Assembly (NCBI RefSeq): GCF_040183065.1
Contig: NC_091123.1
Span: forward strand, 106,862,821 to 106,926,820
Length of the DNA: 64,000 nucleotides
Source of the DNA: Periplaneta americana
Lineage: Eukaryota; Arthropoda; Insecta; Blattodea; Blattidae
Direction: 5' to 3'
In this document: one piece after another, positions 1 through 59,327 of the stretch
Layout of the letters: each line of letters starts with the position of its first letter
Position numbering within the stretch: the stretch's first letter is position 1
Notes under the pieces: generated by a model
Database searches by the model: none
Told to the model about the DNA's origin: nothing
What the model saw: the letters and a program-made list of their open reading frames with translations, nothing else
Made by a program: the position numbers and the translations under genes

Positions 1-105
1 TCTTTTAGTCAGTATAAATCTATCCTCAGAGACAATAGAAGAAGATTCACTTTTCAGCACTTGAAAGAAATGTTTGTAACCTATTGTTATGGTAACAGAC
101 AATAA
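1..105 (+). CDS. hAT transposase, C-terminal end (partial)
   Basis: These are the last 34 residues of a hAT transposase, identical in translation to the C-terminus of the 494-residue protein at 38147-39631. The stop codon is TAA at 103-105. The segment starts inside the dimerisation motif just after the conserved Glu-Arg (RSFS region). Nothing breaks the frame in the visible part. Whether the whole copy is intact depends on sequence left of the window. Confidence 0.9.
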   Translation, partial: SFSQYKSILRDNRRRFTFQHLKEMFVTYCYGNRQ

Positions 106-343
106 AAATTGTGTTTTGTTGAAACTACATTGGAAGATAAGGTACGTCCATTATATTTTTTGTTTAGTTTGATTAAAATGTACCAATATTTAACGTACAT
201 AGTCATTTTTTTTATAATTTTAAGTCCATATTTAATTCCATATTTTGGTAAAAATCCATATTTAATTCCATATTTTGGTAAAAATAACTACATATATATT
301 TACATATTTCATATATTTTTAGTCCATATAAATCCGTTCCCTG
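1..343 (+). mobile_element. hAT transposon, 3' end of a second copy
   Basis: This stretch matches 39527-39868 almost base for base. The only difference I see is one T in a T-run near position 212. It holds the last codons of the transposase, the subterminal TCCATAT motifs, a short tandem duplication around 225-285, and the 3' terminus ending in CCCTG at 343. The left part of the element lies outside the window, so its 5' end and target duplication cannot be checked. The near identity to the complete copy at 37673-39868 shows that this family moved recently. Both copies face the same way. Confidence 0.93.
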
Positions 344-452
344 GTGATCACATTGATCATTGAAGGTGAAACAAAAGAAGATATTTCGAAGAAAATATTC
401 TGAATTTTATGACCATTGACTGCATTTCATATCTCGAACTATCTAAGATACA

Positions 453-3107: not shown

Positions 3108-3430
3108 TTAATAATAATAATAATAATAATAAAATGTTGTTGTTGTTTTCTAATGCCAGGCGTTTGACAATAAAGTCATTTGACCTCTTGCACTCCAATA
3201 TTTTTCAAAGATATTATCATGACCAGCCAATGAAGCACAGATTTTGAGGTGTTCCGAATCCATTTCTTGGTTTGAGTTGCACAATGGGCAGTTAATAATA
3301 ATAAAATGTGATTCTGGTAATTTCAATGCTAATTTGTGCAGTAATGAAAATTTCTTAAAAATACCTCTAGGGCACCTTGTAGGCCTACTCTTCCTTTTAC
3401 ACACAGATTCAGTCTCTTCAAACTAATGGT
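3108..3430 (-). pseudogene. LINE 3' end fragment with Cys/His motif and ATT tail
   Basis: The minus strand encodes about 84 residues ending in a CPLC-x(n)-H-x(4)-C motif (CPLCNSNQEMDSEHLKICAS), typical of the C-terminal zinc-binding segment of some LINE polymerases. Downstream on that strand is a short untranslated stretch and a TTA microsatellite (3108-3131), which fits a LINE 3' tail. Only the end of the element is present, as expected for 5' truncation during target-primed reverse transcription. One TAGGCCTA octamer (3380-3387) lies in frame inside it. Confidence 0.65.
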
Positions 3431-6745: not shown

Positions 6746-7590
6746 CAGTAGGAAAGAGAAATATCGGAAGAACGTAATGGCTATATGTTACCCTTCGAAG
6801 TTGGAACATTTTGTAGGTGAAGAAGAATGAAAAGTGATGCTGCAAGAAATATATTTCAAACTTTTCATGGAAGAACACGTTTTCAGCATCAATGGTGCCA
6901 AAAAATGGTTTTTGATCTGCCTAGTTTGTCTTTGTCAATGATTTCTCTTAACTAATGGATTTTGTTCTTGCATAGTATCAACATATAAATTCATTTGGGA
7001 ATGACGCACATAAAATATAGGCCTAGCCTAATTATTATTAATAAAGTGTCTTTGTTACAAAAAATACAAAATGACTGCTTATTCAAAATCAACTGAAATT
7101 CTCCTATAGGCATCCAACAAAGAAAACTCAGTGCACAGAAACCAGCAGGTGTGACTGTCTTGCGCAGATGACGTACGCTCCCATTCCCAGCATGCTCTCA
7201 CGCCTACTCCAGGGAGTTAAGAGGGGTATAGCATGCACGCCATGAGAAGTCTGAGCTGAGTTTTGCTTGTAGGATACCTACACCTCCTGTTCCCTTCCCC
7301 CTCATGGGACGAGATTACAAATGAAATGGTGTTGAGAGACCATATGTTTTCAGAGATAAAGTGCATGAAATGTTTCACATTGAAGCTTCAGTTATTGTCT
7401 TTGTTTGTTGTCATTTTTGCTAATCATTTTTTGCTACTTGAGGGGTTAGTTACAGCTTACAGCAGTAAAAGTTTTGGAAATATTCAACATTTTTTTTTTT
7501 CCTCCATTATTGTATCTTGTACAATAATGAAAACTGGTATGTGTGAAATATTTTGTCCTGCTAGTTGAAAAAAAAAAAACATATTTTTAA
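6746..7590. other. No recognisable gene
   Basis: This is AT-rich sequence with a more GC-rich patch at about 7130-7310 that resembles nothing I know. A TAGGCCTA octamer followed directly by GCCTA lies at 7018-7030. The 101-codon frame at 7263-7568 ends in T-runs and has no recognisable domain, so I do not call it a gene. Confidence 0.45.
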
Positions 7591-11067: not shown

Positions 11068-11556
11068 AAAACATCTTAAAGTTAGAATTTATAAAACAGT
11101 TATATTACCGGTTGTTCTGTATGGTTGTTAAATTTGGACTCTCACTTTGAGAGAGGAACAGAGATTAAGGGTGTTTCAGAATAAGGTCCTTACGAAAATA
11201 TTTGGGGCTAAGAGGGATGAAGTTACAGGAGAATGGAGAAAGTTACACAACACAGAGCTGCACGCATTGTATACTTCACCTGACATAATTAGGACCATAA
11301 AATCCAGATGTTTGAGATGGGCAGGACATGTAGCACGTATGGGCGAATCCAGAAATGCATACAGAATGTTAGTTCGGAGGCCGGAGGGCAAAAGACCTTT
11401 GGGGAGGTCGAGACGTAGATGGGAAGATAATATTAAAATGGATTTGAGGGAGGTAGGATATGATGGTAGGGACTGGATTAATCTTGCTCAGGATAGGGAC
11501 CAATGGCGGGCTTATGTGAGGGCGGCAATGAACCTCCGGGTTCCTTAAAAGCCAGT
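11068..11556 (+). pseudogene. LINE reverse transcriptase C-terminus, 5'-truncated copy
   Basis: The open frame 11147-11548 encodes 133 residues: a REEQRLRVFQNKVLTKIFG start, RLRWAGHVARMGESRNAYRM in the middle, and a GYDGRDWINLAQDRDQWRAY end. This is the C-terminal, DNA-contacting part of a LINE protein. It matches the minus-strand copy at 1625-2240, and the shared 3' end reads CCTTAAAAGCCAGTAAGT. No RT catalytic motif is present, so this is a dead 5'-truncated insertion. Upstream sequence from 11068 is in the same family (KLRIYKTVILPVVLYG-like) but has a stop. Confidence 0.88.
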
Positions 11557-17150: not shown

Positions 17151-17295
17151 AGCTTGACTAAAAAACTGAAGGAAAAACAATCTGATTACCGGTAATGAAA
17201 ATTTGCATGACATTGTAAACAGCAAATTTTTCAGATCTGACGCTTGATTTAATAAAAGAGAGCTACAATATCCCATAATAATATAATAGGCCTAA

Positions 17296-19125: not shown

Positions 19126-19444
19126 ATTGGCATTTAATTCCTCCATATCTCACTTTTTTTTTTGTGTCTACTTTTCCATTAGTTTCACAAACAGAAAAGA
19201 TTCTCCACTCGTATTTGGGAACATTACACACGTTCTTAATTTATATAATGTACGAATATTTAATGCCATTTCTTTAAAAAGTAGGCTATATAAATATTAT
19301 TTTTTATGCTTCATTAGCGAAAATCTACAAAAGCCAGTAAAAAAACTTGACGCATTAGTATTAAGGACAATTGGAAAGAATTATGTTAGATCAGTGACTT
19401 AGGTATTGGAAATGAATAATGATTATTTCATTTGAAGTTTTTCT

Positions 19445-22404: not shown

Positions 22405-22560
22405 AAAATAAAATTAGGCCTACATTTTCTGAGTTAATTGAAGTTACAATTTTTTCAACAAAATTGTGTGTTCATTTGTTTGTTCTCACCTACGTCATAT
22501 TAACAGTAAGTGCATGTAATTTACGTATTATAGAGGTAGGATAAGTTAAAATTAAACTTA

Positions 22561-23837: not shown

Positions 23838-25086
23838 CAGCGTTGCCAACCGTGGCCGAATTCGGCTAAACGTAGCTTAATTTTTAGTCATGTAGCTTGT
23901 AGCAGAATGATCGTAGCCGAATGTCAAAATGTAGCCGAATTGAGATTCGATGGAGCGACCATCTGTGAATACTTACATTTTATGTGTAAACACTTTCTTT
24001 TAACAAATTTATTTTGTCATACTAATACCCACCAGAATTTCCTCACTTCGTCATTAAAATTACGAAAACATACCGGTATACCTTATTTTATTTCAAGGAG
24101 TGCAGTTTGGTGGTTCCTTTGAACAACCACTTACAGATTTATAACTTCCTACATAATCACCTCTGACAATTCCATCCTGTCCCCTCGTCCCAACATTGCA
24201 CAGTTGCCACAATCCTGGTGACCCTCGACGGGATTCTTGGAATTCGGAAAAGACGCGGCAACTCTGCCTCCACGTGGATTAGACGGGAGTCTGTCAAATC
24301 TTCTGAACAAGGGTTGTGATTGGTTACTGACAGGAGAAGACAAGATTTCCGTCACAGGAAGACATTTATTTAAGACAACCAATTAGTAGGGGGCAGTAGA
24401 AGGTCTGTCGGCAAAGTCCTTTCTACGAAACTGCACTCCATGAAAAAAATACAATAGAAACTTTGTGTCACAGACTGAATTCTGAACAATGCGACCCGCA
24501 TTTATGGCAAGGATAGCAGTGCTATTTTCAGTTTTATTCTCCTATTATGTGAATAGCGCCTATTACCTAACTCACAATTTCTATACTCGTGAATTTGCAG
24601 ACACCCATCAGGCGATTTATTAGGGGTCGCCTACCTAACAAAAGTAAACCTGACAGTTCCTCTGTTTGTGAACTTCCCGGCACACAACAGAGTTTTTATT
24701 AGGGGTCGCCTACTCCGCAAAATTAACCGTACTCCGACTTCAAATAAAAAAAAAACTTAAACCTCTTAGATTTAAAAAACTGACCTTCCCACGCATATCT
24801 ATCCCATTGTCCACTTGCTGCGACACTTTGTCCAAAACACAGTGTCCATGTGTTTAAAAATATTTGTCTACGTATTTATAGGTACATATTTACAGTTAAA
24901 ATTTTAGCTAGTGTTATCAGAAGGATCGACTAGATTTCATTAGGTGAGATACTTTCCCTTTTTTATATTGGTGCATGGTTTGTAGATTGGGTTGAGCAAC
25001 TCTTTACCAAACCCTAGGCCTATGTATTGATTTTTCGGTTTGTAAGAAATAATAATGATTATTATAAATATTAACATTAATAACCC

Positions 25087-25367: not shown

Positions 25368-26260
25368 ATATGTCAGCCACAGATCACGATGTTAGTTGTT
25401 TACACAGAATTAATGCTATAATCAAATCAACGCGAATAAAGAAGGAATGCATCTACTAGTTTCACAAATAAATAAGTCATTTATACCCATGTGAAGTGTT
25501 GTGTATCATTTAATCAGCTGTTGTCTTGAATTTATTGGAAAGCGTTCTCGATTCCACTTTTCTCTGATAGGCAAGATCGTACAATAATTTGTGTCTTGTG
25601 TTAATGTGCATTATCTGGTAGCATGTGTGGATCCATTTTAACATAAAAATTAATTTCCTTTAGTTTATTCCTTTCCCTCCGAAAATCACGATCTTAATTA
25701 ATTTCAAGAAGACAACTTCCAGCTTTTTAACGTGTTCGGTAACCCACTAAATTAGGCCTAACTGATGTACCCACGATCTTGATAATTCTAAGGGAAATAG
25801 CTTTTATTTTATAACATTGTAGTATGTGACCTTATCTATTTATGTAATATTCACAGGCCCTAATTTATAATTGGCTAGAATGGGCAAATACCCAGAGCAA
25901 GGGAGCAAGAGAAAGTATTTTAAAGTAGGATGTTGAAATAATTGTTAAATACATGCTCAATAAAAATGAATATTTATAAATAATGTAATAGAAACAGCTT
26001 TTTGTTTGGTGAATTGGCACAATTATTGTTTCAAATTTTTGTTTGGTAATGGAAGGCATTAAGTTAAAGAAAGAGGTTAGGGTGCCAACATTTGCTCTGT
26101 CCTGTTTTCCAGTGACCTAAACCCAGGGTCTAAATATTCATAATAGGTGTTATTCTCTTGTATTATTTTTATTTCAGTAAACGGTTGGTTGCACTGTATG
26201 ATTGCTTCATCGTCCATTATGAATTTTGATCAGATTATCATAAGCTGATTAACATACACT
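25368..26260. other. No recognisable gene; likely left flank of a Harbinger
   Basis: AT-rich sequence with one TAGGCCTA (25753-25760). It lies upstream of the Myb-like gene of a decayed Harbinger, so its 5' part may belong to that element, but no terminal repeat could be matched. Confidence 0.4.
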
Positions 26261-27273: not shown

Positions 27274-28194
27274 ACTGAAATCACAAGATTTTGAAGTAGT
27301 TATGGTGTTTATTTTGTTCAAGTCTATATGTTCTTTTTTATTTAAATTAAAAAATTTAATCTAACATATTAAATCACATTAGGTAACTTATATACTGATA
27401 ACTTCAGTTTTGTAGTGGTTGTAATATGTTATGATGTCATTTTGATATTTTCATAATGTCATTCGGTTTATATCATTCACTGTATTAATAATACCATATT
27501 CAACATATCACATCAGGTTATCATGCTACTTAAAACAGAAGATATTTAAATTTATGTAGCTTCTTAAATAATTGAATAACAAGTTAATCAGTAGGTAGTT
27601 TAACTTAATTCCAATTGAAAAACGAAATTTATTGCATGTTATCACCTATCACATAATTTATATATGGCTTATTTATAATATAGTACTAATACATGAGAAA
27701 AAAACAGTAGGCTAGGCCTAATTATAACATGACATCAAAATGTTCATAAATCAATTGTTAGTTTCATTTCTAATTATTTTAATAGACATGAACATAATGT
27801 GACAGTATATTCCCTCCAGCTAATTTCTTATATGTTATAAAATAATGACACTGCATATTTCAAGTAATTAGTTACTTTCTTTCATTGAAATCCGACATTA
27901 ATATAATTTTGATACAAATGCAGATTTATTTCAACTTGTAACATCACTGCGTAATTAAAATAAAGTGGGATTTTTACATAAATTGTGACTACACTATAAT
28001 GTGTTAAAATATTTGTGTATCAGTAGTAATATTTTATACAGCACAGTTACAATTAAGTCATGTCATCGTTAGATTCTATATTATGGCGGTTGTGTTGCAT
28101 CTAAAGCTACACCACACAAGATAATATGTCAGATTTTAAAAAATAACAATTTTAGGCTTAATAATTTATGGTGCAAGTTACTGGTACAGGGTAC
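27274..28194. other. AT-rich spacer between convergent Harbinger genes
   Basis: No coding potential was recognised. One TAGGCTA and one TAGGCCTA lie back to back at 27707-27720. The spacer joins the 3' end of the Myb-like gene and the 3' end of the transposase. Confidence 0.5.
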
Positions 28195-29250: not shown

Positions 29251-30776
29251 AGGACTGAGAGAACAGAGACTGGAATTAGAGTACAGAGAGTGGACTGAGA
29301 GTAGAGAGAGTGAACTGAAAGTACAGAGAGTGAACTGAGAGTACAGAGAGTGGACAGAGAGGAGCCTGGGAGGATAGATAGAGCACTGAGGGATATGGAG
29401 TAAGCTAAGAGAACAGAGACTGAACTGAGTCGCAAGAAGGTGGAGAGCGAGGATGGTGAGTAGACTGAGAGACCAGAGAGTGGACGGAGGGGACAGAGAG
29501 TAGACTGAGAGGAAAGGAAATGTACTGAGAGGACAGAAAGTGGACAGAGATTACAGAGAGTGAATTGAGAGTACAGAGAGTAAACTGAGGGGCAGAGTGG
29601 ACGGAGACGACAGGGAGAGGACTCAGACAACAGTATGTAGCCTGAGAGGATAGGGAGTGGACTGAGAGGATAGGGAATGATGAGCAAGAGGAGTGGGAAT
29701 GAGCTAAGAGAACAGCGAGTGAACTGAGAGAAAAGAGAGTGGACACAGAGAATGTTGAGTATATTGAGAGAACAGAGAGTGGACTGAGAGGACAGAGAAG
29801 GGGCAGAGATTACAGAGAGTGAATTGAGAGTACATTGTGTGGATTGAAAGGACGGAAAGTGATACAAAGAAAACTGAGAGGATGGAGTGGGCTGAGGAGA
29901 AAAAGAATGAACTGAGAAGACGCAGATTGGACTGAGAGAGAGAGAGAGAGAGAGGACTGAGGTAGTAGAACAGGGAAAGGAAACAGAGCGGACCGATATC
30001 AAAGAGAGAGTACTGAAATTACAGTGAGTGAGCACAGAGAGGACTGAGAGGAAAGAATTCTGAATCGCAGTTTCCCCAGTTCACTCTCAGTCCAGTCTCT
30101 ATCCTCTCAGTTCACTCTCTGTACACTCAATCCACTCTCAGTTTTTCACCCCACTCTGTCCTCTCTGTCACCTGAGTCCATATTCTGTACTCTCTGTCCT
30201 CTCAGACTACTCTGTCCTCTCGATCCACACTGTGTCTCCTCTCTGTTCTCTCAGTCCACTCTCTGTCACCTCAGTCTACTCTCTGTCCCTTCCCTGTTGT
30301 CTAAGTCACTCTCTGTCCTATCAGTCCACTCTTTGCCTTCTCAGTCCTCTCAGTCCACTCTCTGTCTTCACTCTGTCCTCTGAGTCCACACTCTGTGATC
30401 TCAGTACACTCTCTGTTCTCTCAGTCAACTCTATCCTCTCTGTCCACTCTCTCTTCTCTCAATTCACTTTCTGGTCCCTCTCTATTCTTTTAGTTCACTC
30501 GCTATCCCCACAGTGCTCCATCTATTCTCTCAGTCTCCTCTCTGTCCTCTCAGTCCACTGCCTGTCCTTTCATTCCACTCTCTGTAGGCCTACTCACAGT
30601 CCACTCTCTGTATTTTAGTCCACTCTCTGTACACTCAGTTCACTCTGTCACTTTTGTGCCTTCTCTGCCCTTTGCCTTCCCTCTGTCCACTCTCTCTCGT
30701 CTCAAAGTTCAGTTCATGAAGGAAAGAGGAGACTGAGAATAAAACAATGACTGAGAAGACAGTGATGACTGAAATT
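29251..30776. repeat. Minisatellite that switches strand (GA-rich then CT-rich)
   Basis: 29251-30053 is made of imperfect units of about 17-20 bp such as ACTGAGAGGACAGAGAGTGG on the + strand. 30072-30704 carries the complementary form (CAGTCCACTCTCTGTCC). 30721-30776 returns to the GA form. The whole can fold into a very long imperfect hairpin and has strong purine/pyrimidine asymmetry. Long frames encoded here (307 and 128 codons, Leu/Ser-rich) simply translate the repeat. Confidence 0.93.
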
Positions 30777-30784
30777 TAGTGGAA

Positions 30785-31720
30785 GGGGTTCAATATGTAA
30801 GGTTTTTTTTAAAGTTAGATTTTCCAGCAAATCCTTCATACCCACATTAATGAATTTTAATTTTAAGGGGCTCGAACTAAAGAGATAACACGCTCACTAG
30901 GTTCAAACTACAGTCCGATATTTAACGGAGGGGATTCATTATGTATACAAGTTTAGGTTTTTCCTGCAATTCTTTATTCCTACAATAAGCAATTATACAT
31001 TTTCAGGGCTCGAACTCAGGACCCGTCATTGGGTTAAAACTACAGACTGTAATGTGGCGGAAGATTTGCATTGTGTATACAAGTTTTTAGTTTTTCCTGA
31101 AATGTTTTATTCCTTTAATAAAAAATTATAAATTTTCGAGGCTCGAACTCAGAGAATAATACCGTCATTGGGTTGAAACTACAGGCTGTAATTTGGCGGA
31201 AGATGTGCATTGTGTATACAAGTTTTAAATTTTTCCTGAAATTTTTATGTCTTTAATGAAGAATTATAAGTTTACGGGGCTCAAACCCAGGAAATAATGC
31301 CGTCACTGGGTCCAAACTACAGACTGTAATTTGGCGGAAGTCGAGCAGTGTGTATACAAGTTTGTAGATTTTTCCTGGAAATTTTTATGCCTCTAATAAA
31401 CAATTATAGCCTACACTTTCGGTATTCGAACTCAGAAAATATTGCCGTCACTTTGTCCAAACAAGAGACTGTAATTTGGCGGAAGATGTGCATTGTCTAT
31501 ACAAGTTTTTAGATTTTTCTTGCAATTTTTTATGTCTCTAATACAGAATTATAAATTTTCGGAGCTCAAACCCAGGATATAATGCCGTCATTGAATCCAG
31601 ACTACAGGCTGTAATTTCGCGGAAGTGGAGCATTGCGTGTACATGGTTTTGGACTTTTCCTGTAATTTTTAATACCTATAATGATGAATTATATATTTTC
31701 GGGGCTCGAATTCGGCCTTA
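30785..31720. repeat. Tandem satellite, about 7 units of 132-144 bp
   Basis: Each unit contains GTATACAAG (near 30943, 31075, 31214, 31352 and 31496, with a changed form near 31637), an AATTTTTCCTG-like stretch, GGGGCTCGAACTCAG, CCGTCATTGGG and AATTTGGCGGAAG. Units differ by 10-25 percent by eye. On the minus strand several carry GTTCGAGCC, which fits a tRNA B-box. Unit 5 carries an extra GCCTA at TA near 31402-31407. Confidence 0.9.
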
Positions 31721-32990: not shown

Positions 32991-33103
32991 ACAAAGTAGG
33001 CCTACAATAGGATTAGGATCAGTCATTTGAGCATGCAGTAGGGGTACATGTTAACAGGCAACAAGTAACGAATTGATGCCCACCTGTTTCAAGCAAAGCA
33101 AAG

Positions 33104-34583
33104 ATGGCGGCCGGCAAGGAAAACGCATATATTGCTCCTGAGTTTTACGGTAATTATGGTATTCTAAATTCAGAAACTTGTTTAAAGTGCTGCTGTTTGG
33201 CAAATGAAGTGGATAATCTGCAACAGGAATTACTATCAGCACGTGAAATAATTAGAATTCTGCAAGAAGACGGTTTTACCTTACAGCAACAACAGAAGGA
33301 TCAAATCTCTAGGCCTAATTTCAGTACCGTGAGAGAAGGAAGTTCCTTGGTAGTGACTGACTGGACTAAAGTAGTATATAAAAATGGGACTAAATCAAAG
33401 AATATAAATGACTTTAATTACGCCACACCTCAACCAATCCCAGTGATTGTGAATCGTTATGAGGTGCTTCAAAGCGATCAAATGAATGACAACATACTCC
33501 ATAAAGAAAAACAACATGGCGGGAGAAGTGGACAAAGAAGTGTAACCCTACCAGCAAGGAAGAAGCACAATGTTATAGTTATTGGTGATAGTCACGCCAG
33601 AGGTTGTTCAGAGAACATAAAGCATTGCAGTAAAATTCCAATCAATGTGATTGGCTATGTGAAACCCAATGCCGGAACAAAGCACATCGTAGAAAGTGCA
33701 AAATCAGACATTAAACATTTAACAAGAAATGACTTTGTGGTAGTGTGGGGTGGTGCAAATGATATTAGTAAGAACAATGCCGCGCATGCTATCAGAAACC
33801 TGACATCACTAGCAAATAAGTGCAGCCACACGAATGTCCTCTTTATTAGTGCCCCTCATAGATATGATCTGATGGCCTCGTCCTGTGTTAACGAAGAAGT
33901 CAATTCATTTAACGACAGATTAAAAAAAAAGAATGGAAATCTTCAGAAATGTGAGAATAATTGACTTAAATCTGGACAGGAATAAATTTACCAGACATGG
34001 TCTTCATCTAAATAATCTTGGAAAACAATTAATGGGAGAAAAAATTATGAGCGAAATACTAGATATAACTGCGAGTTCATCGAAGGATCCCATTGTGATG
34101 GACTGGACAAGACCATGTGCGGAAGTCTCTACAGAAGAAGACGACAATGTAAAGGGAACTGCAGACAGGGGAGACTTGTTAGAAAGAGACGACGATGTCA
34201 TCAAGGGGACTACATGCAGAGTTGAATCGACAGAAGACAACGCAGCCATCAAGGAAACAGCAGACAGGACAAGACCGGACACGGAAGACTCTATGGAAGA
34301 AGACGACGATACAAAGGGGACTACTCAAAGGGGAGACTTGCTAGATGGAGACGACGATGTCATCAATGGGACTATGTGCAGAGAAGACCAGACAGAAGAC
34401 ACCGAAGCCATCAACGGAACAGTAGACAGGAGAGAACTACCTGAGGTGGAGATCGACAATCAAGTGACGTCGCAGCTACATACAACAGGGGAATCATCAG
34501 AGATCACTTGCACCTCCAGTAGAAACCCGAAGAAACCAGCCCATTTGGAGGATTTTTTATGTCCAGGTTTACGCTCAAACTAA
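33104..34583 (+). pseudogene. LINE ORF1 with SGNH esterase domain, one frameshift
   Basis: The start MAAGKENAYIAPEFYG follows a non-repetitive leader. Residues about 30-66 look like a coiled coil (CLANEVDNLQQELLSAREII). An SGNH/GDSL hydrolase follows, with block I GDSH at residues 161-164, block III GGAND at 216-220, and block V HGLHLNNLG after the break. The frame shifts at the A-run 33925-33933, between LKKK and MEIFRNVRII. One base is enough to restore continuity, so it may be a sequencing error. The C-terminal part holds two 54-residue acidic repeats (34107-34430). Such ORF1 proteins bind RNA and form particles; the esterase role is unclear. The stop overlaps the ORF2 start. Confidence 0.88.
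34107..34430 (+). repeat. Two 162-bp acidic repeats inside LINE ORF1
   Basis: Copies 34107-34268 and 34269-34430 are in frame and have equal length. They encode T-R-P...EEDD...RGDLL(E/D)...DDDVI(K/N)GT...TED...DR. The length is a multiple of three, so the frame is kept. This gives ORF1 a highly acidic tail. Confidence 0.9.
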
Positions 34584-37672: not shown

Positions 37673-39868
<2,196 letters not shown>

Positions 39869-39876
39869 CTGATTAG

Positions 39877-40259
39877 GTTGCTAAAGTAAAATGATGCGAC
39901 GTTATCTTTCAGTTTCAGATAAAATCAGAGTATGAATTAACGGGGATTTCCCCCCTGTTGGAAACTTATCTCCTTCTCATAAATTCATATTTACATCCCT
40001 GCCAGAGATAATTTCTATCCTCCTACAAAATATAATTGTTTTAATACGCGTATACTTTATAAAACATAAAGTAAGCAAAGAAAATAATATTGATCTATTA
40101 AAATCTGACAACAATAAATAACTTAGGAATTACACAGCTTATCTTAAATCATTCACATTTTCAAAGTGTGATTCAGTCGTGGTACAGAAGTGTTATTCAT
40201 TAACTTATTATTGTTACTTCCAATGTTTACATTTCATCACAGTAATGTCAACAACAGCA
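39877..40259. other. No recognisable feature
   Basis: AT-rich flank to the right of the hAT insertion, without repeats or coding potential that I can name. Confidence 0.45.
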
Positions 40260-42240: not shown

Positions 42241-42310
42241 ATAAATAGGCCTAGTAAAACAAAATGGCAGCCAGATCCACATGTGATTTATTTCTAAGGC
42301 AATTATTATT

Positions 42311-42520
42311 GTATTTGGGTTAATTACTTGGATAGGGATGATGGTGAGCATGAAGTTTCTCTAGTGGAAAAAGAATTATTACGAGGAATTAGGTGACAGA
42401 AAATTTCAGGAGGGATTTCGTTTAATTAGGCCTACTTGGATGGAGATGATGGTGAGAGTGAAGTTTTACTAGTGGAAAGAGACTTATTACGAGGAATTAG
42501 GTGACAGAAAATTTCAGAAG
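42311..42520 (+). repeat. Tandem duplication, about 100 bp, with 6-bp insertion in copy 2
   Basis: Copies at about 42311-42410 and 42411-42520 share GATGATGGTGAG and TTATTACGAGGAATTAGGTG. Copy 1 reads TTAATTACTTGGAT where copy 2 reads TTAATTAGGCCTACTTGGAT, so GGCCTA is an insertion at TA. Confidence 0.88.
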
Positions 42521-43800: not shown

Positions 43801-45175
43801 TTAAATACCCATTCCCGTATGATCGGTTTTTTACTGTCCATAATATTCTTTGACATTCATGTTCTACCTAAACATCATGCTTGCCGATTGCCTGGGACTT
43901 GCTCCGTGTGTTACATGTAAGTAGGTAAACAGTGGCTTTCTCCTATATCGACGGAGCAGTGTAGTTATCTTTTAAATAAAATTACGTAAACTCAGTTTTC
44001 TTAATACATGCTCAATTCACAGTTACAAAATGTTTATTAAGAGCTCATTACATAAAATAATGTTTTAGTAAATTATACAAAACTTTTAAATTGCTTAGCA
44101 AGTCCAAGATGTAGTTAACGACAAAGACATTTATTTATATTCATTCTTGATTTACACACTTTTAACACCATATATGAGAAATAATAATTGTTAAAAACTT
44201 GTTTAATTAACAACTTTATAATTAACTGTTAACTACTGAAATTTAAGAAGGTACTATACCTTAGTGACTAGTTTCGGAATGATATCCGCCATTATCTGTA
44301 GTTTAATGAATATGGGCCAATAGTGTTAACATTGCATTGTTAATAAAATAAAATTAATTTGTACCTGTGATTATAGAATGTAGAAGTTTCAAGATATAGA
44401 TCACTATCAAAATATTTATAGGCCTATAGGTTGTCGGTATGTAAAAAGTAGATATTTAACGTTTGCGTAAAAAATTACGTTTATGGATATATAGACCATA
44501 TAATATTGTAAGAAATGTAGAAGTTAAACTGATAATTTTATGTATTTATAGTAGGCCTACACTTTTCTACATTAGAAAATCTTTGTTCATGTATTTCGTG
44601 TTTTTATATAGTCTACTAATTCATTTTAATAGTTTATTTGAATGTAAAAATATAACTGCAACACCAGACGTCACAAAATATGGAATCTAGGTACTTCATA
44701 TAACACATTTTTAGACATTTCATATAATTTACTTAACTGACTGTGATGCATTACTTTCGCTACTGTTATTGCTGTTGTCACACAGTATAGGTAATCTTTG
44801 TTACTTATTTCACAATGAATAGGCTTCAAGGTTTCTAGCCACTCAGCAGATATTTTCTTACCTTTTCATATTATGATTTTAATAGGAAATAATAAGCACA
44901 CAATAATATCTCCACGTTCATTTACCAGTGTCCATATAATATCAGCGTTCACCTGAAAAGGAAGATTATATTTTATATCTACTATTATATGAAACATGTA
45001 GGGTCATTCCACAGTAACACATGTTAAATTCAGACACATTTATGAAATTATTAGTAGACTTAGCAATTGAGGCGCATAAACTCTGAGTTACGTGTACACA
45101 GGATAAAGCATAGAGCAGCTGGCAAAATAGTCCTCTTCTATCGTACACACACTGTGTCAATTGGAGATTTTGTAA
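43801..45175. other. No recognisable gene
   Basis: Very AT-rich sequence with two TAGGCCTA octamers (44419-44426 and 44552-44559). The 75-codon frame at 44463 has no recognisable domain. Confidence 0.45.
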
Positions 45176-45256: not shown

Positions 45257-46151
45257 CAAAGCTCGGAACTTGGGGACTTGTGTCTTTACACGTGGTTAAG
45301 CGACCGGACACCAATATCAACAAACTCCCGCTTCCAGCACGGAGGTACTGTCAGGTCTGGTGGAAGAACATATTGCTAGTAGTACGGTGGGTTGAAACAC
45401 GTAATTTTTAGCATATAATATATAATAAAAATAAACATGAGAAATATATCAACTTTACTGTTCTCCTCTGTACATATTTCCGAACCCATAACTTCTTCAT
45501 ATGATACGAAACGAGAAAAATTTATTTCCACATCATATGAAGTGACGAGAGCAAACTTAAAACACTGAATGTTTTCACTGTCACTGTTTTCTTGGTCGAT
45601 TTTCAGCACTTGCTAGCTGATCTCGTATCTGAGAAAAATAAGTAGGCCTATATCCTAAATTTTTCTCGAAAATAATTTTCAATTTGTGTGTCACTATTAG
45701 GGCAGGCTCCTCTACGACTTGATCCATGGCTATGAACAGATTTTCCACTAATTTAAGGGACTGCAATGTTTTTCAATGAATACCTCTAATTTATGTGTGG
45801 CACAACTTACAAAATATAAACTTTCCATTCGAAAACAAATAAGGTATCTCCTCCGAATTCCTCGACGAATTCTGTACCTAAAGTTTAAAAAATGTATTTT
45901 TAAACTTCTATAATACCCATTCGAATAACACGTATTTTCTAATTCTTCAAACAGACCGTTTTCCTGTAATTCTCTGAATGTCACTGGCTTCGAAATGACA
46001 CAGTTTCCTCATCCGTCTTCCTGTTATTCGATGTGACCACTTTCTTAGTACACACGACTGTCCCTGAGCACTTGCAGCGTGAGCTTTGTGTACATCGTAC
46101 CTTAACCTTACTCATGCTCACGACACACAAGTCCCCAAGTTCCGAGCTTTG
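45257..46151 (-). mobile_element. hAT element, internally deleted, 895 bp
   Basis: Terminal repeats are identical over 27 bases, starting CAAAGCTCGGAACTTGGGGA. GTTATGTT flanks both ends exactly (45249-45256 and 46152-46159). Minus-strand fragments of the transposase C-terminus are inside. Confidence 0.93.
45376..46002 (-). pseudogene. hAT transposase C-terminal remnant
   Basis: Read on the minus strand, pieces in three frames give LKLVENLFIAMDQVVEEPA, KLKIIFEKNLGYRPTYFSQI, and finally CFKFALVTSYDVEINFSRF. The last piece corresponds to the [15 protein letters not shown] dimerisation motif of the intact 494-residue protein. The catalytic Glu position is kept (DVE) but the following Arg is Ile. 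RP in GYRPTYF has no counterpart in the intact relative and coincides with a TAGGCCTA octamer (45643-45650). The N-terminal two thirds, with both catalytic Asp residues, are missing. Confidence 0.75.
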
Positions 46152-46159
46152 GTTATGTT

Positions 46160-46271
46160 GGCCAGAATACAATGTATTGTCATCTCTGAGCTGTAGAAAC
46201 ACATTTTCTTAGGCCTATAAAGAATTATACAAAGCAATACTGTTTAAGAAGGTAATTTTAAACAATCTGTA

Positions 46272-46920: not shown

Positions 46921-48368
46921 ATGCCTAAAGTGAAATCGTGTGTACGCGAGCGTTTGTAACATACGTAGGCCTACTAGAGTTTAAAAACGCTTTATTTTGC
47001 CAGCCATGTGCGAAATCAGTAAGTACAGACCAACGATCCCAGGTAATACAACATATGTATGTCAGGAAGTAAGCACATCACAGCTGCATCGCGTGTTTCG
47101 TCGAGACAATTTCTTATAGGAGAATCAACGCCATCCCTATCTTAACATTCCAAAACACTCAGATTATTATTGAGATTTATGTAAAGCCTTTCTTTCAACT
47201 GACATTCTTCTTCATAAAGTGAACAATCCCGAGCTCAGAAAGTTTCTTACTAAATATACGAACATAGTCCTCCTGATGAGTAGACACTAAGGAAAAATTA
47301 TCTTCCAAAGTGCTACGATGAAACATTACAAATCATTAGGTCTATATGTGAAAATAAAAAAAATCTGGTTGAGTATTGACGAAACTACCGATGCCAGTGG
47401 TCGAAAAGTGGGAAATGTAATAGTAGGTGTACTTAAAAATGACGAAATCATTTCCAAGAAATTTTTCTTGCTAGCCTATAAAGAAATGCCAGCTGCAAAT
47501 CTTGTAACAATAGCTAGGCTATTTAATCAATCTTTGAATATCTTGTGGCGAATGGTGTGGAATATGGCAATGTATTGCTTCTGCTTATCGACTCCGCAGA
47601 ATACATAAAGAAAGCTGCTGAAGGTCTTTGTGTAAGTTACCCTAACATGATTCATGTAACGTGTCGTTCAATAGTGAAATAATCCGATACATTTATCCTA
47701 ATGTGGACAGTTAGTGTCCAACGAAAAAAAAGGGCTTTGTAAAATCACCATCACAGATTGATCTTTTCAAAAAGATAAATCCTGATTTTCCATTGCCTCC
47801 TACACCTGTAGTCACGCGTTAGAGCACCTGGTTTAACGTCGTGTTGTATTATGCAGATCATTACTACATCTGTAGTAAGTGAACTGGACAAAGACCATGC
47901 CTCTGCAACTGAGACTAAGATCATTAAGAATTTAATATGTGATACTGCTTTAAAATAAGAATTGGCCTTCATGCCTGCTAATTTCGGTTTCTTGATTCAC
48001 TCAAAGAAACTAGGAACGTCTGTAGATTTATTGAGTAATTCAGCTAAAGAAATACAACATGTTGAAAGACAACTTAACACTATCTCAGGTTCGAAAATAG
48101 AAGTTCTAAGAAAAAAATTTAACATTTGAGAAAAATAGTGGCTACCAAACTTTCTGCAAAGCCTCTCAAGTGTGAACTTGATCGTGTGTGTGTTAGTGAT
48201 ATACCCCTCTTCAAATATGCAAGGTTAACATCGTGTGATGTAGAACATTCCTTTTCTCAATATAAGGCATTGTTCTCGAATAATAGGCAAGGATTTGTAA
48301 TCCATAATCTGGAGATGACATTTATTGTGCACTGTAACTCCAGTCTGCATTTTACATCTGATGTTTAG
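46921..48368 (+). pseudogene. hAT transposase relic, relative of the intact family
   Basis: The start MPKVKSC and the following FVTYV...LEFKNALFCQPC parallel MPKVRHS and [11 protein letters not shown]...ILFCNLC of the intact protein. Later pieces: YVRKH (finger), LRKNYLPKCYDE, IWLSIDETTDASGRKVGNVI (first catalytic Asp), LFNQSLNILW, and near the end RLTSCDVEHSFSQYKALFSN (dimerisation motif, Arg changed to His). Multiple stops and frameshifts make it inactive. GGCCTA at 46968-46973 adds two residues (GL) absent from the relative. TTTAGCACAT motifs near 48465-48500 may be subterminal repeats. The ends and target duplication could not be fixed. Confidence 0.85.
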
Positions 48369-49864: not shown

Positions 49865-50750
49865 AAAATAGGCCTAAGCATAAAACAAATTGAAAAGAAA
49901 AATAAATTAGCTTACACAATGGAAATAAAACCTAAACCATCCGTAATTTAAACATTGCGATTGCAAATCAAATATCAGTCATCAATTGAGACATACAGAA
50001 AACAGTTACAACACATAAACAAAACATTTCTTATAGCGGTACTCTATAACACAATTAAGCAACTTTCCCTAACATACATCATAAATTAATACACAACAGT
50101 CACACAAAAATACCGGTATTAAATTTGTGATTTGTAACTAACGTTACACAAAAAAGACATTCCAAGCAAATACAATAAGGTTACTTTAAATCTCTCTGAA
50201 AGTAAACGTCTTATATGTTTCCAATTTTATCAGTATGTAGTGCTGTTATATATGTTTAGAATATAGAGCCACTTTCTTAAACTATTGATAACAAAAAGAG
50301 GAATAAACGAAAATAATTTTATTAGAAAGTACTAGTAACTCACGTTACATTTTGTCCGTAAGTGTAAATTTGTGACCGTTGTGTTTTTTTACACAATGAT
50401 TCTTAAATCTTAGTGGAACATTATATAACAATAAACCTCTTTAACAATTGTCTTTTATAATATTGCCACCAATGGTGATTTTGTTACTCCATTACATAGT
50501 GTATGACGTCCCTATAATTTCAAATTTTCACTGTATACACAATGACAAATGAACATTTTATTTCAAAAGAACTTTAAATTCAAATGTATTACATATAATA
50601 TAAACCCAATTATAGATGAGGAGGCGAGACCTGGCATGTGAGCTCTGCGAGGGGGGATAGAGAATTTGTTTTATGGTTAATTTTATACCAATCTACCGAC
50701 ATGGAAGTTGATCTCAGACTGAAACCTATCTTTCCCATCCACACCCATTG
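49865..50750. other. No gene recognised; repeated ACGTTAC motifs
   Basis: TAACTAACGTTACAC (near 50136) and TAACTCACGTTACAT (near 50336) occur here. Very similar motifs occur at 58998-59045 and 59190-59215, next to loosely similar AT-rich sequence, so a diverged repeat family is possible. Confidence 0.35.
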
Positions 50751-56419: not shown

Positions 56420-57179
56420 ATGATGTCTGGTGATAATAATAATTTAATTCAGCAACAAAAGCTAAATACAGTAATTTAACTAAAGCAATACGGGATCATG
56501 ATGTTGCTATTGCACCATATTCGTGCTTCTAACGCACTCGCGACTTTTGGAACTGTGCATATTGAAACTGACCTAAGTGACCAAACACAACAAAGTATTA
56601 TTCAAAATCACTTGTAGATATCTACAGTATTCAAAGGTGTATCAAATCATATTCAAAAAAATTTAATTGAATCTGTTACCAGTGCACTTAATAAGGAAAT
56701 TAAACAGCACTTACAGAAATCAGATTTTTTTGCCATATTAGCTGATGAGACAACTGACGTCTCGAATAAATCACAATTTTCTCTCGTTTATCGATATACG
56801 ATTGAAGGAAGGATGGTAGAGCGGTTTGTGTGCTTCCGTGATGTGAGGACAAAACAGCGGCAGCACATTCTGATCTTTTTTTTAAAGAGATATTCAAGAC
56901 TTTTCAAACTGCAGTAAGAAATTTATCGCACAGAGCTACGATGGAAGTGCAGTGACGACTTCTTCATTACATGGTGTCAAGCTAATACTAAGGCGTTTTT
57001 TCACAAGGTCTCTTTGTTCACTGCTATGCACACTGTTTAAATTTAGCACTGTCCCAAAGTGCTTCAAGTATTCCTGAATGCCGTATATTTTTTGCTACTC
57101 TTTCTGGGCTTGCAGCGTTTTTCTCCAAATCATCAAACCGCACAAAATTTCTTGATGAATTTCTGGGTCGACATTATTA
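56420..57179 (+). pseudogene. hAT transposase (ZMYM1-like), middle part, broken
   Basis: Visible pieces: STVFKGVSNHIQKNLIESVT, FFAILADETTDVSNKSQFSL (first catalytic Asp), YRYTIEGRMVERFVCFRDVR, IAQSYDGSAV (second), a CYAHCLNLALSQS-like motif around 57020-57060, and ASSIPECRIFFATLSGLAAF. After the mariner, TCFPTRWNSSSRLTNT (58515-58570) matches the NTRWNFTFRLIHT segment of the hAT at 12186. Several frameshifts and stops are present. Confidence 0.82.
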
Positions 57180-58512
57180 CGAGGGGGATCCAGGAAATAA
57201 CGACCGTTTTGTTGTAATAATTAAAAAAAAATATTTATTTGAAAAAAACAAAGTCTGTTACATAACTGAAGCTTCCTTTACTTCTCTACATAATCACCAC
57301 CTACATTTAAACATTTGTCGTATCTGTTCACTAGCTTTAGATTTCCCGTGTTATACTCCTCTACCGCCAGTTCATTAAGCCAGGTGTTCACTGTCTTCTT
57401 CAACTCTTCATCACTTCCAAAACGCGTACCACCCAGAAAGTCTTTCAGCTTAGTGAAAAGGTGAAAATCGCTAGGAGCAAGGTCTGGACTATAGGGCGGA
57501 TGATCAAAGATTTCCCAACCGAATTGATCCAGCAATTCTCGAGTTGAAGCAGCAGTGTGCGAGCGGACGTTGTCGTGAAGAAGCACAACTCCTCTCGAAA
57601 GCATTCCTCGCCTCTTGTTTTGGATGGCTCGCCGTAGTTTTCGTAAAGTCTCACAATAACGATTTGCATTGATCGTAGTGCCTCTTGGCATGAAATCCAG
57701 CAAAAGAACACCTTTGCGTTCCCAAAAGACAGTAGCCATGACTTTTTGTGTTGAGAGAGTCTGTTTGAATTTTCTCGGTTTCTTGGGTGATGAGGGATGA
57801 TGCCACTGACGTGATTGGCGCTTGGTCTCTGGGGTGTTGTGAGACACCCAGGTCTCATCACCAGTCACAATTTGATCAAGAAAGGCGTCTCCATCTGTGT
57901 GATATCGCATCAAGAATGTCAATGCTGAGGCCATTCTCTGAGTTTTGTGTTGGTCACTCAGTTGCCGTGGAACCCATCGTGCATAGATTTTTTGGTAGCC
58001 AAGATGTTGCGACACAATTTCACCAAGCAAAGAACGAGAAATGTTAGGAAAGGCAATATGCAATTCGTCGAGTGATGTGCGCCTGTCTTGCAAGATTCTG
58101 TCGTTCACTTTAGTCTTCAGGTCTTCTGTAATGAGTGATGGGCGTCCGGGTCGAGTTTCATCGTGGACATTTGTTCGCCCATTGTTGAACATTTCGCACC
58201 ATTTTCAAACATTTCTTTCATTCATTACAGTATCACCATACACTTCTTTCAATTGCCGGTAAATTTCTGCAGGTTTCAAATGTCGGGCATTCAAAAATCA
58301 AATCACACTCCTCACCTCACAGTCGGCGGGATTATCAATCACGTCGTTCATTTTGAAGTAACACAAAATGCACAATGGCGACTTGTTGCAACCAGTACTC
58401 ACAACATTATGAGAACACATGTTAAGGAAGCCAGTTGACCTTCAAACAAGGAAGGGGAGTCAGCTGCGCGGCGGGTATGCGCGAACGGTCGTTATTTCCT
58501 GGATCCCCCTCG
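57180..58512 (-). mobile_element. Mariner element, 1333 bp, full length
   Basis: Terminal repeats, identical over 27 bases, start CGAGGGGGATCCAGGAAATA. TA flanks both ends (57178-57179 and 58513-58514). The transposase is on the minus strand. Insertion split the hAT coding sequence between a FLGRHY-like segment and TCFPTRW. Identical ends suggest a fairly young copy. Confidence 0.95.
57278..58351 (-). pseudogene. Mariner transposase (D34D), two stop codons
   Basis: The start is MNDVIDNPADCEVRSVI at 58351. A TGA follows at once, before FLNARHLKPAEIYRQLKEVY; a second TGA lies between NERNV and KWCEMFNNGRTNV. The rest is one open frame of 304 codons: ARWVPRQLSDQHK (conserved linker), VTGDETWVSH, VVLLHDNVRSHTA and PYSPDLAPSDFHLF, with 34 residues between the last two catalytic Asp residues. 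It ends GDYVEK. The frame is constant over 358 codons, so only two nonsense changes separate it from a continuous frame. Confidence 0.93.
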
Positions 58513-58620
58513 TAACACATGTTTCCCCAACAAGATGAAATAGCTCGTCACGACTTACCAATACTTAGAGTAGTCTTTTATAATAGTATTTTTAATTTTA
58601 GGCAGTAGTTGCAGTAGGCT

Positions 58621-59327
58621 TAATCTTATAGATTTTGTAAAAAAAAAAAAGGTACCAAATACCAACGTATTTTTATAATTAGTAATGTTACAAGTATTTG
58701 AATCAAATATAAATAGCAAGAAGGAAAAGAAAACTTGACTACGCGTCTGCTTGGGTAATCTGTTGGGCTACCGCACGTGGCTGAGTGTACTTGTGTTAGG
58801 CCTATCCCTTTTATAGTTGTGGCACTTTTAAACATCGTACTGCCACGAAGCAATGGAGCAATCAAACACAAAGGCAGACTTTAGGCCATATCTAAAAATT
58901 TTGCTGCTGAATCGCATTGGAAATAATTTTGTTTCTTGCTTCCTAATTTCAACAATGTTAACATCTCATTAAGTGCAATATTTAAGGAATCATGTAACTA
59001 ACGTTACATATGCGTAAGTCACGCTATCGTCACTCACGTTACTTATTTTCCGATTTAAAAATAGGCTCGTGTATAGTACCAACAATGTATTTTTTATCTA
59101 TGATTTAAGGTAAAAATAAATACTAAGAGGAATAAATAATTTAAGGAATAGATGTGATTATTAACATATCTATGAACGGAAGGAGGTTATTTTCGTAACT
59201 CACATTACACGGCACAAGGTTGTATTTTTTTAACTCTCGTTCGTTATAAGCAAAATGAACATGTAATATATTCAAGTCTAAATATGTTATAACTTATCCT
59301 AGGTCACTATCTCTGTTTATAACAATT

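Follow-up and report, generated by a model that had tools for sequence, protein, structure and literature searches.

The octamer TAGGCCTA as a probable transposon excision footprint in the genome of Periplaneta americana

Why does the octamer TAGGCCTA recur so often in the window, the whole stretch of 64,000 nucleotides of the P. americana genome analysed here, and where does it come from? The initial annotation had counted 19 occurrences, and all of these positions were exact (19/19). Its rough estimate was about one or fewer by chance. The Markov expectation was 0.42–0.59 at orders 1–3, and the word was present at more than 30 times this expectation. The expectation climbed to 2.5–16 at orders 4–6 because those orders contain TAGGCCTA itself, and was 0.31–0.36 once the sites themselves were taken out. 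Masking of the minisatellite and of simple repeats left 18 occurrences against 0.42 expected. By the order-3 ratio of observed to expected counts, TAGGCCTA ranked above every other octamer occurring at least 8 times in the window. In a 200-kb sample of 20 spread 10-kb stretches, 19 occurrences were found against 1.5 expected, and 11 of the 20 stretches contained none.

Genome-wide, where the figures are word counts and not independent events and some words lie in tandem arrays, TAGGCCTA occurred 457,526 times and the reversed word 16,914 times. TAGGCTA and TAGCCTA together occurred 615,663 times (187,645 for the reversed controls), and TACCGGTA occurred 108,900 times (64,554 for the reversed control). 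The excess was about 0.4 million words per length class (GGCC; GGC/GCC), and about 0.87 million together by control subtraction. The density of TAGGCCTA in the window, 1 per 3.4 kb, was above the genome mean of 1 per 7.1 kb. In a census of TA-N4-TA words in 264 kb (the window plus the 20 spread stretches, with simple repeats masked and one count per context), GGCC showed the strongest excess (36 vs. 1.9), followed by CCGG (11 vs. 1.6). Among the 3-nt spacers, GGC/GCC (48 vs. 17.4) and CAG/CTG (104 vs. 60.4) exceeded expectation, and CCG/CGG was barely above it (22 vs. 18.4).

The window sites for which relatives were compared, together with two putative compound sites, are as follows:

42427..42434: TAGGCCTA, probable scar in copy 2 of a tandem duplication of 108 bp (copy 1 TTAATTACTTGG, copy 2 TTAATTAGGCCTACTTGG)
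42246..42253: TAGGCCTA, probable scar; GGCCTA absent from one homologue (L011:5359-5673)
30585..30592: TAGGCCTA, probable scar in a minisatellite, G-TA-C context; word in 0/14 covering alignments
46966..46973: TAGGCCTA, probable scar in a decayed hAT, Y-V-[GL]-L-E-F, G-TA-C context; fixed spacing in 57/57 relatives
33310..33317: TAGGCCTA in LINE ORF1; RP likewise in P0121 and P0122; not an insertion relative to these
31407..31413: TAGCCTA, putative sister scar of the GCC type within a tandem array; AATTATA, lacking GCCTA, in three of the other copies
7018..7030, minus strand: TAGGCCTAGCCTA, putative compound GGCC+GCC scar; same 13-mer as at 27708, in reverse complement
27708..27720, plus strand: TAGGCTAGGCCTA, putative compound GGC+GGCC scar; includes the TAGGCCTA counted at 27713

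The two copies of the tandem duplication at 42311-42520 differed as the initial annotation described, and a gap-free alignment paired 42325-42412 with 42433-42520. Its reading of the octamer as a 6-bp insertion at TA was supported by relatives without GGCCTA at four window sites (42427, 30585, 42246 and 46966). Insertion, as opposed to an ancestral octamer, was supported at these four sites and at the high-copy repeat site described below, and did not hold at 33310; the word is usually an insertion at TA. Site 42246 was compared with its single homologue, at 68.5% identity. At site 30585, 2 of the 14 alignments covering other minisatellite units read exactly CTGTA-CTCTCA. The N-terminus of the decayed hAT at 46966 carried two additional residues, GL, while all tested relatives (57/57) fitted the loose motif Y-x-x-E-F, and this copy had a frame break just upstream of the site. 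The RP residues at 33310 were also present in relatives at 64% and 59% identity, so the word or the residues there are old. The remaining 14 TAGGCCTA sites had no informative relative when the window was compared with itself and with the sampled stretches. In an all-against-all listing of indels over 273 kb, TAGGCCTA was contained in 0 of 17 six-base indels, a set too small to test. TA-GCC-TA at 31407 was found in 1 of 4 comparable tandem copies. Window positions 1-355 repeated, at 97–100% identity, the hAT element's 3′ terminus (39527-39880).

The further window sites are listed below. TACCGGTA occurred 7 times in the window against 0.25 expected, which is an excess of the word.

3380..3387: TAGGCCTA, G-TA-C context
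17287..17294: TAGGCCTA
22415..22422: TAGGCCTA
25015..25022: TAGGCCTA
25753..25760: TAGGCCTA
32997..33004: TAGGCCTA, G-TA-C context
44419..44426: TAGGCCTA
44552..44559: TAGGCCTA, G-TA-C context
45643..45650: TAGGCCTA
46210..46217: TAGGCCTA
49869..49876: TAGGCCTA
58797..58804: TAGGCCTA
17187..17194, also 24071, 27121, 42771, 43446, 50111 and 56363: TACCGGTA, possibly a CCG-type scar; word excess
19282..19288, plus strand: TAGGCTA
4996, 11984, 40861, 47472, 47515 and 52201: more TAGGCTA/TAGCCTA, some of which may be chance

High-copy TA sites were taken from the sampled stretches, and any 3–33-nt insert at their TA was sought genome-wide. Site 1 was TTCCATTTCG-TA-CAATATTCTGG and site 2 was ATTCGCCCA-TA-CGTGCTACATG. 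By our reading of the frame, site 2 appears to lie in a LINE frame whose product also includes ...GHVARMGESRNAY... (window ORF 11132-11548), and site 1 is putatively part of the same interspersed repeat family, as judged from co-occurrence in the same stretches. Empty copies were counted at site 1 only, where plain TA was found in 25,436 copies and inserts of 3–33 nt in 37. Before insertion, site 1 was a single plain TA. Sorted by eye, the 37 inserts comprised GGC, GCC and GGCC (5 each), CTG (4), CAG (2), and one each of CCGG, CGG, GG, GC, GTC, GAC, TTG, ATG, CGAG and CGCT, and the other six were duplications or other inserts. Site 2 gave 173 inserts, and the 100 of these that were listed comprised GCC (15), GGC (11), CA (11), GGCC (9), CAG (6), CTG (3), GG/CC (3) and TG (2), plus others. 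The CA inserts may largely represent CATA slippage, since TG was rare. All insert loci were kept in these counts and may include segmental duplicates. The reversed-pattern controls were 0 for site 1 inserts, site 2 inserts and site 1 empty copies.

TA-x-TA inserts thus arose at both sites, with x mostly GGC, GCC or GGCC, beside CAG/CTG. GGC, GCC and GGCC together were the commonest class, with 15 of 37 inserts at site 1 and 35 of the 100 listed at site 2. Doubling of TA with a short spacer was seen by eye in 31/37 inserts at site 1; at site 2, 84 of the 100 listed ended in TA with 1–4 nt between, 79 of them with 2–4 nt. Both orientations of the residue were present, GGC:GCC being 5:5 at site 1 and 11:15 among those listed at site 2, and CAG:CTG being 2:4 and 6:3, respectively. 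TA-CGAG-TA occurred once per test site, and the mariner in the window (57178-58514) ends in TA-CGAGGGGG, as if its relatives had left 4-nt footprints.

Excision of Tc1/mariner-type elements has a 3-nt overhang geometry. We consider it probable that TAGGCCTA is the excision footprint of a DNA transposon of the IS630/Tc1/mariner type. Such an element would have the ends 5′-GGC...GCC-3′ and would land at TA, with a predicted preference for G beside the TA, as G-TA-C or G-TA-T. Its excision would leave 3-nt 3′ overhangs, GGC, on both flanks. Overhangs overlapping over all 3 nt would form a G-G mismatch, the repair of which would give TA-GGC-TA or TA-GCC-TA, while overhangs pairing through the inner self-complementary GC (2 bp), with fill-in, would give TA-GGCC-TA, which is TAGGCCTA. 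The assumption of a GGC end alone would thus yield all three main products. TACCGGTA and TACCGTA/TACGGTA would be the corresponding products of a CCG-ended element. In the flanks of GGCC words, GTAC was found 8 times against 1.1–1.2 expected, with 5 of the 8 in the window; in those of GGC/GCC words, GTAT/ATAC was found 16 times against 4.7 and GTAC 4 times against 1.5. The ratio of GGC+GCC to GGCC was 2–3:1 at the test sites, yet it was near 1:1 genome-wide after control subtraction, which counts against the model.

Footprints of Tc1/mariner elements are 2–4 bp (PMC7913693), and the DNA elements of the P. americana genome are mainly Tc1-Mariner and hAT (PMC12774602). Sleeping Beauty leaves the footprint TAC(A/T)GTA (PMC3432063). 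The cockroach inserts resemble those of Sleeping Beauty and Tc1/mariner in that TA is retained on both sides of a 3-nt residue found in both orientations (PMC3432063, PMC7913693), and in the cockroach the Sleeping Beauty residue CAG/CTG itself shares its TA sites with the GGC class. Unlike in Sleeping Beauty, the cockroach residue is GGC/GCC together with the 4-nt GGCC, which CAG ends cannot form via an inner GC pair. Passer, of the pogo superfamily, leaves footprints of 0–4 bp, so that 4-nt residues occur in related elements, although the part of that report drawn on here makes no mention of a GGCC footprint (PMC9976928). In rice, Mariner excision footprints were likewise found through genome comparison, with 90 and 102 recent transpositions in two genomes (PMC4423477), compared with about 0.4 million excess words per length class here. 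Among the matches listed from the open-licence full-text literature, no title or abstract opening presented TAGGCCTA as a scar. The octamer co-occurs with "footprint" and "transpos" in PMC7650587, where it is part of a primer, and a perch primer also contains it (PMC9312242); neither is evidence. The footprint chemistry is already known, and it is the scale and the absent donor that are unusual.

The initial annotation had speculated that the words are scars from the excision of an element that targets TA and has GG...CC ends with a 2-base overhang, a guess that came close. The idea of excision scars stood in kind, since GGCC was found beside GGC, GCC and CAG/CTG at the same TA, while no donor was found. 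The overhang fared less well. Ends of GG...CC with both 2-nt overhangs retained would yield TAGGCCTA directly, and a TA-flanked element with GGGG...CCCC ends does exist (L016:3901-4118). This version would need the loss of one base to give GGC/GCC, yet GGC+GCC outnumbered GGCC at both sites (10:5 and 26:9) and GG/CC alone was rare (1/37; 3/100); for these reasons, a 3-nt overhang (GGC) fits better and we consider the 2-nt version improbable. Telomerase could also put G residues on broken ends: 2-nt staggered TA-3′ ends would each gain GG, half of TTAGG, and be joined as TAGG|CCTA, a head-to-head half repeat of the P. americana telomere AACCT/TTAGG (PMC12774602). Independent addition of G predicts 18.8 TA-GC-TA at site 2 (from 9 GGCC and 26 GGC/GCC) and 5.0 at site 1, where 1 was observed in each case, and telomerase repair leaves both the CAG/CTG and the CCGG inserts at the same TA unexplained. 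A telomere-repeat origin is disfavoured by the missing TA-GC-TA class and is, in our estimate, very unlikely.

Elements of the PIF/Harbinger type with GG(G/C)CC ends and a TAA/TTA target, tabulated as such in PMC4423477, might leave scars, but the test sites CG-TA-CA and CA-TA-CG are neither TAA nor TTA and TA alone was doubled, and we give this origin very little weight, less than telomerase repair. Least probable of all is that the word is a binding site under selection or an artefact of assembly. The sharpness of the word and the lack of a clear halo of one-mismatch forms would suit either of these, whereas the insertions were found in copies of several kinds of repeat (LINE-associated, hAT and satellite) together with a range of related inserts, and the data are HiFi with a 99.5% consensus cut-off (PMC12774602), provided that the same assembly is concerned.

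If TAGGCCTA is the footprint of a GGC-ended element, a donor with matching TA-GGC...GCC-TA ends might be expected; the inverted-end pairs of 335 kb (overlaps included) gave one doubtful family, and 59 junctions gave no resident element, which counts against the model. The sole family with TA-GGC inverted ends in the 335 kb (overlaps included) was a small MITE family, TAGGCRTCTTCTTAGCGG, with the inner repeat TAGGC(A/G)TCTTCTTAGCGG and 126 exact ends genome-wide (L005:2123-2427, L024-L035). This family is doubtful as the donor because an ATAC(C/T)ATT-like flank outside the TA was common to 7/11 copies. Its repeat probably runs on beyond the TA, although the left and right flanks of single copies matched at only 3–4 of 10 positions there, so that the match stops near the TA and the family keeps some standing as a candidate. 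A resident element was found at 0/59 'ATTCGCCCATAGGC' junctions, which are site 2 junctions with GGC (reversed control 1). Four of the 59 had no LINE sequence in the 21 nt following GGC; in 4-kb stretches, which would miss any larger resident, neither an inverted end nor the remaining LINE half was seen for these four, and they are probably chance 14-mers. The TA-flanked GGGG...CCCC element mentioned above leaves GGC/GCC unexplained and was rejected as the donor. Searches of viral contigs with hAT, mariner and LINE proteins gave no match. The donor is therefore rare, diverged, longer than the search could show, or gone. We tentatively suggest, at rather less than even confidence, a ghost transposon, that is, a TA-targeting, GGC-ended cut-and-paste element whose excision was efficient enough to leave several hundred thousand germ-line scars and few or no copies of itself. 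Its footprint, and not its body, would be its commonest trace in the genome.

If the excision reading is right, nature would have documented the repair of one type of double-strand break hundreds of thousands of times in a single genome, and the excision numbers, repair choice (mismatch repair vs. GC microhomology) and insertion preference of an unseen transposon would be readable from repeat copies. It is also a caution against taking any over-represented word for a binding site, since it may be a scar.

The suggestion that the sites accumulate with age was not borne out by the one-mismatch forms or by a survey of hAT copies for GL/RP inserts. Neutral, steady gathering of scars would predict about as many one-mismatch forms as intact ones. 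The window contained 10 such forms against 9.8–11.3 by chance and the 200-kb sample 44 against 37.7–42.2, with the four central transitions somewhat elevated in the latter (16 vs. 8.6). Since there was no clear halo, most sites look recent when measured against substitution. Among the 120 of 789 hAT matches listed, no copy more than 75% identical carried a two-residue GL or RP insert. GGCC and GGC words co-clustered in the part of C1 that was listed first (r 0.69, plus-strand TAGGCTA only). Across 26 scattered bins, which count against the model, GGCC showed no clear correlation with GGC (r 0.17) and no significant correlation with CAG/CTG (r -0.34, p 0.09), and GGC tracked the control word pair GAC/GTC (r 0.55).

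Extreme density was seen in one 10-kb stretch (L040, C1:755001-765000), with 10 TAGGCCTA, 8 TAGGCTA/TAGCCTA, 9 TACAGTA/TACTGTA and 1 TACCGGTA. At C1:1034003-1034514, 7 successive TAGGCCTA were found at 84-bp spacing, and the satellite unit there seems to contain the word. In the 264-kb census, TA-ACC-TA/TA-GGT-TA (54 vs. 31) and TA-AAA-TA/TA-TTT-TA (273 vs. 195) were elevated too, and both are unaccounted for by the scar model. Other elevated TA-N4-TA palindromes in the 200-kb sample (L004-L023) were TATCGATA (9 vs. 2.9) and TAATATTA (42 vs. 19–25).
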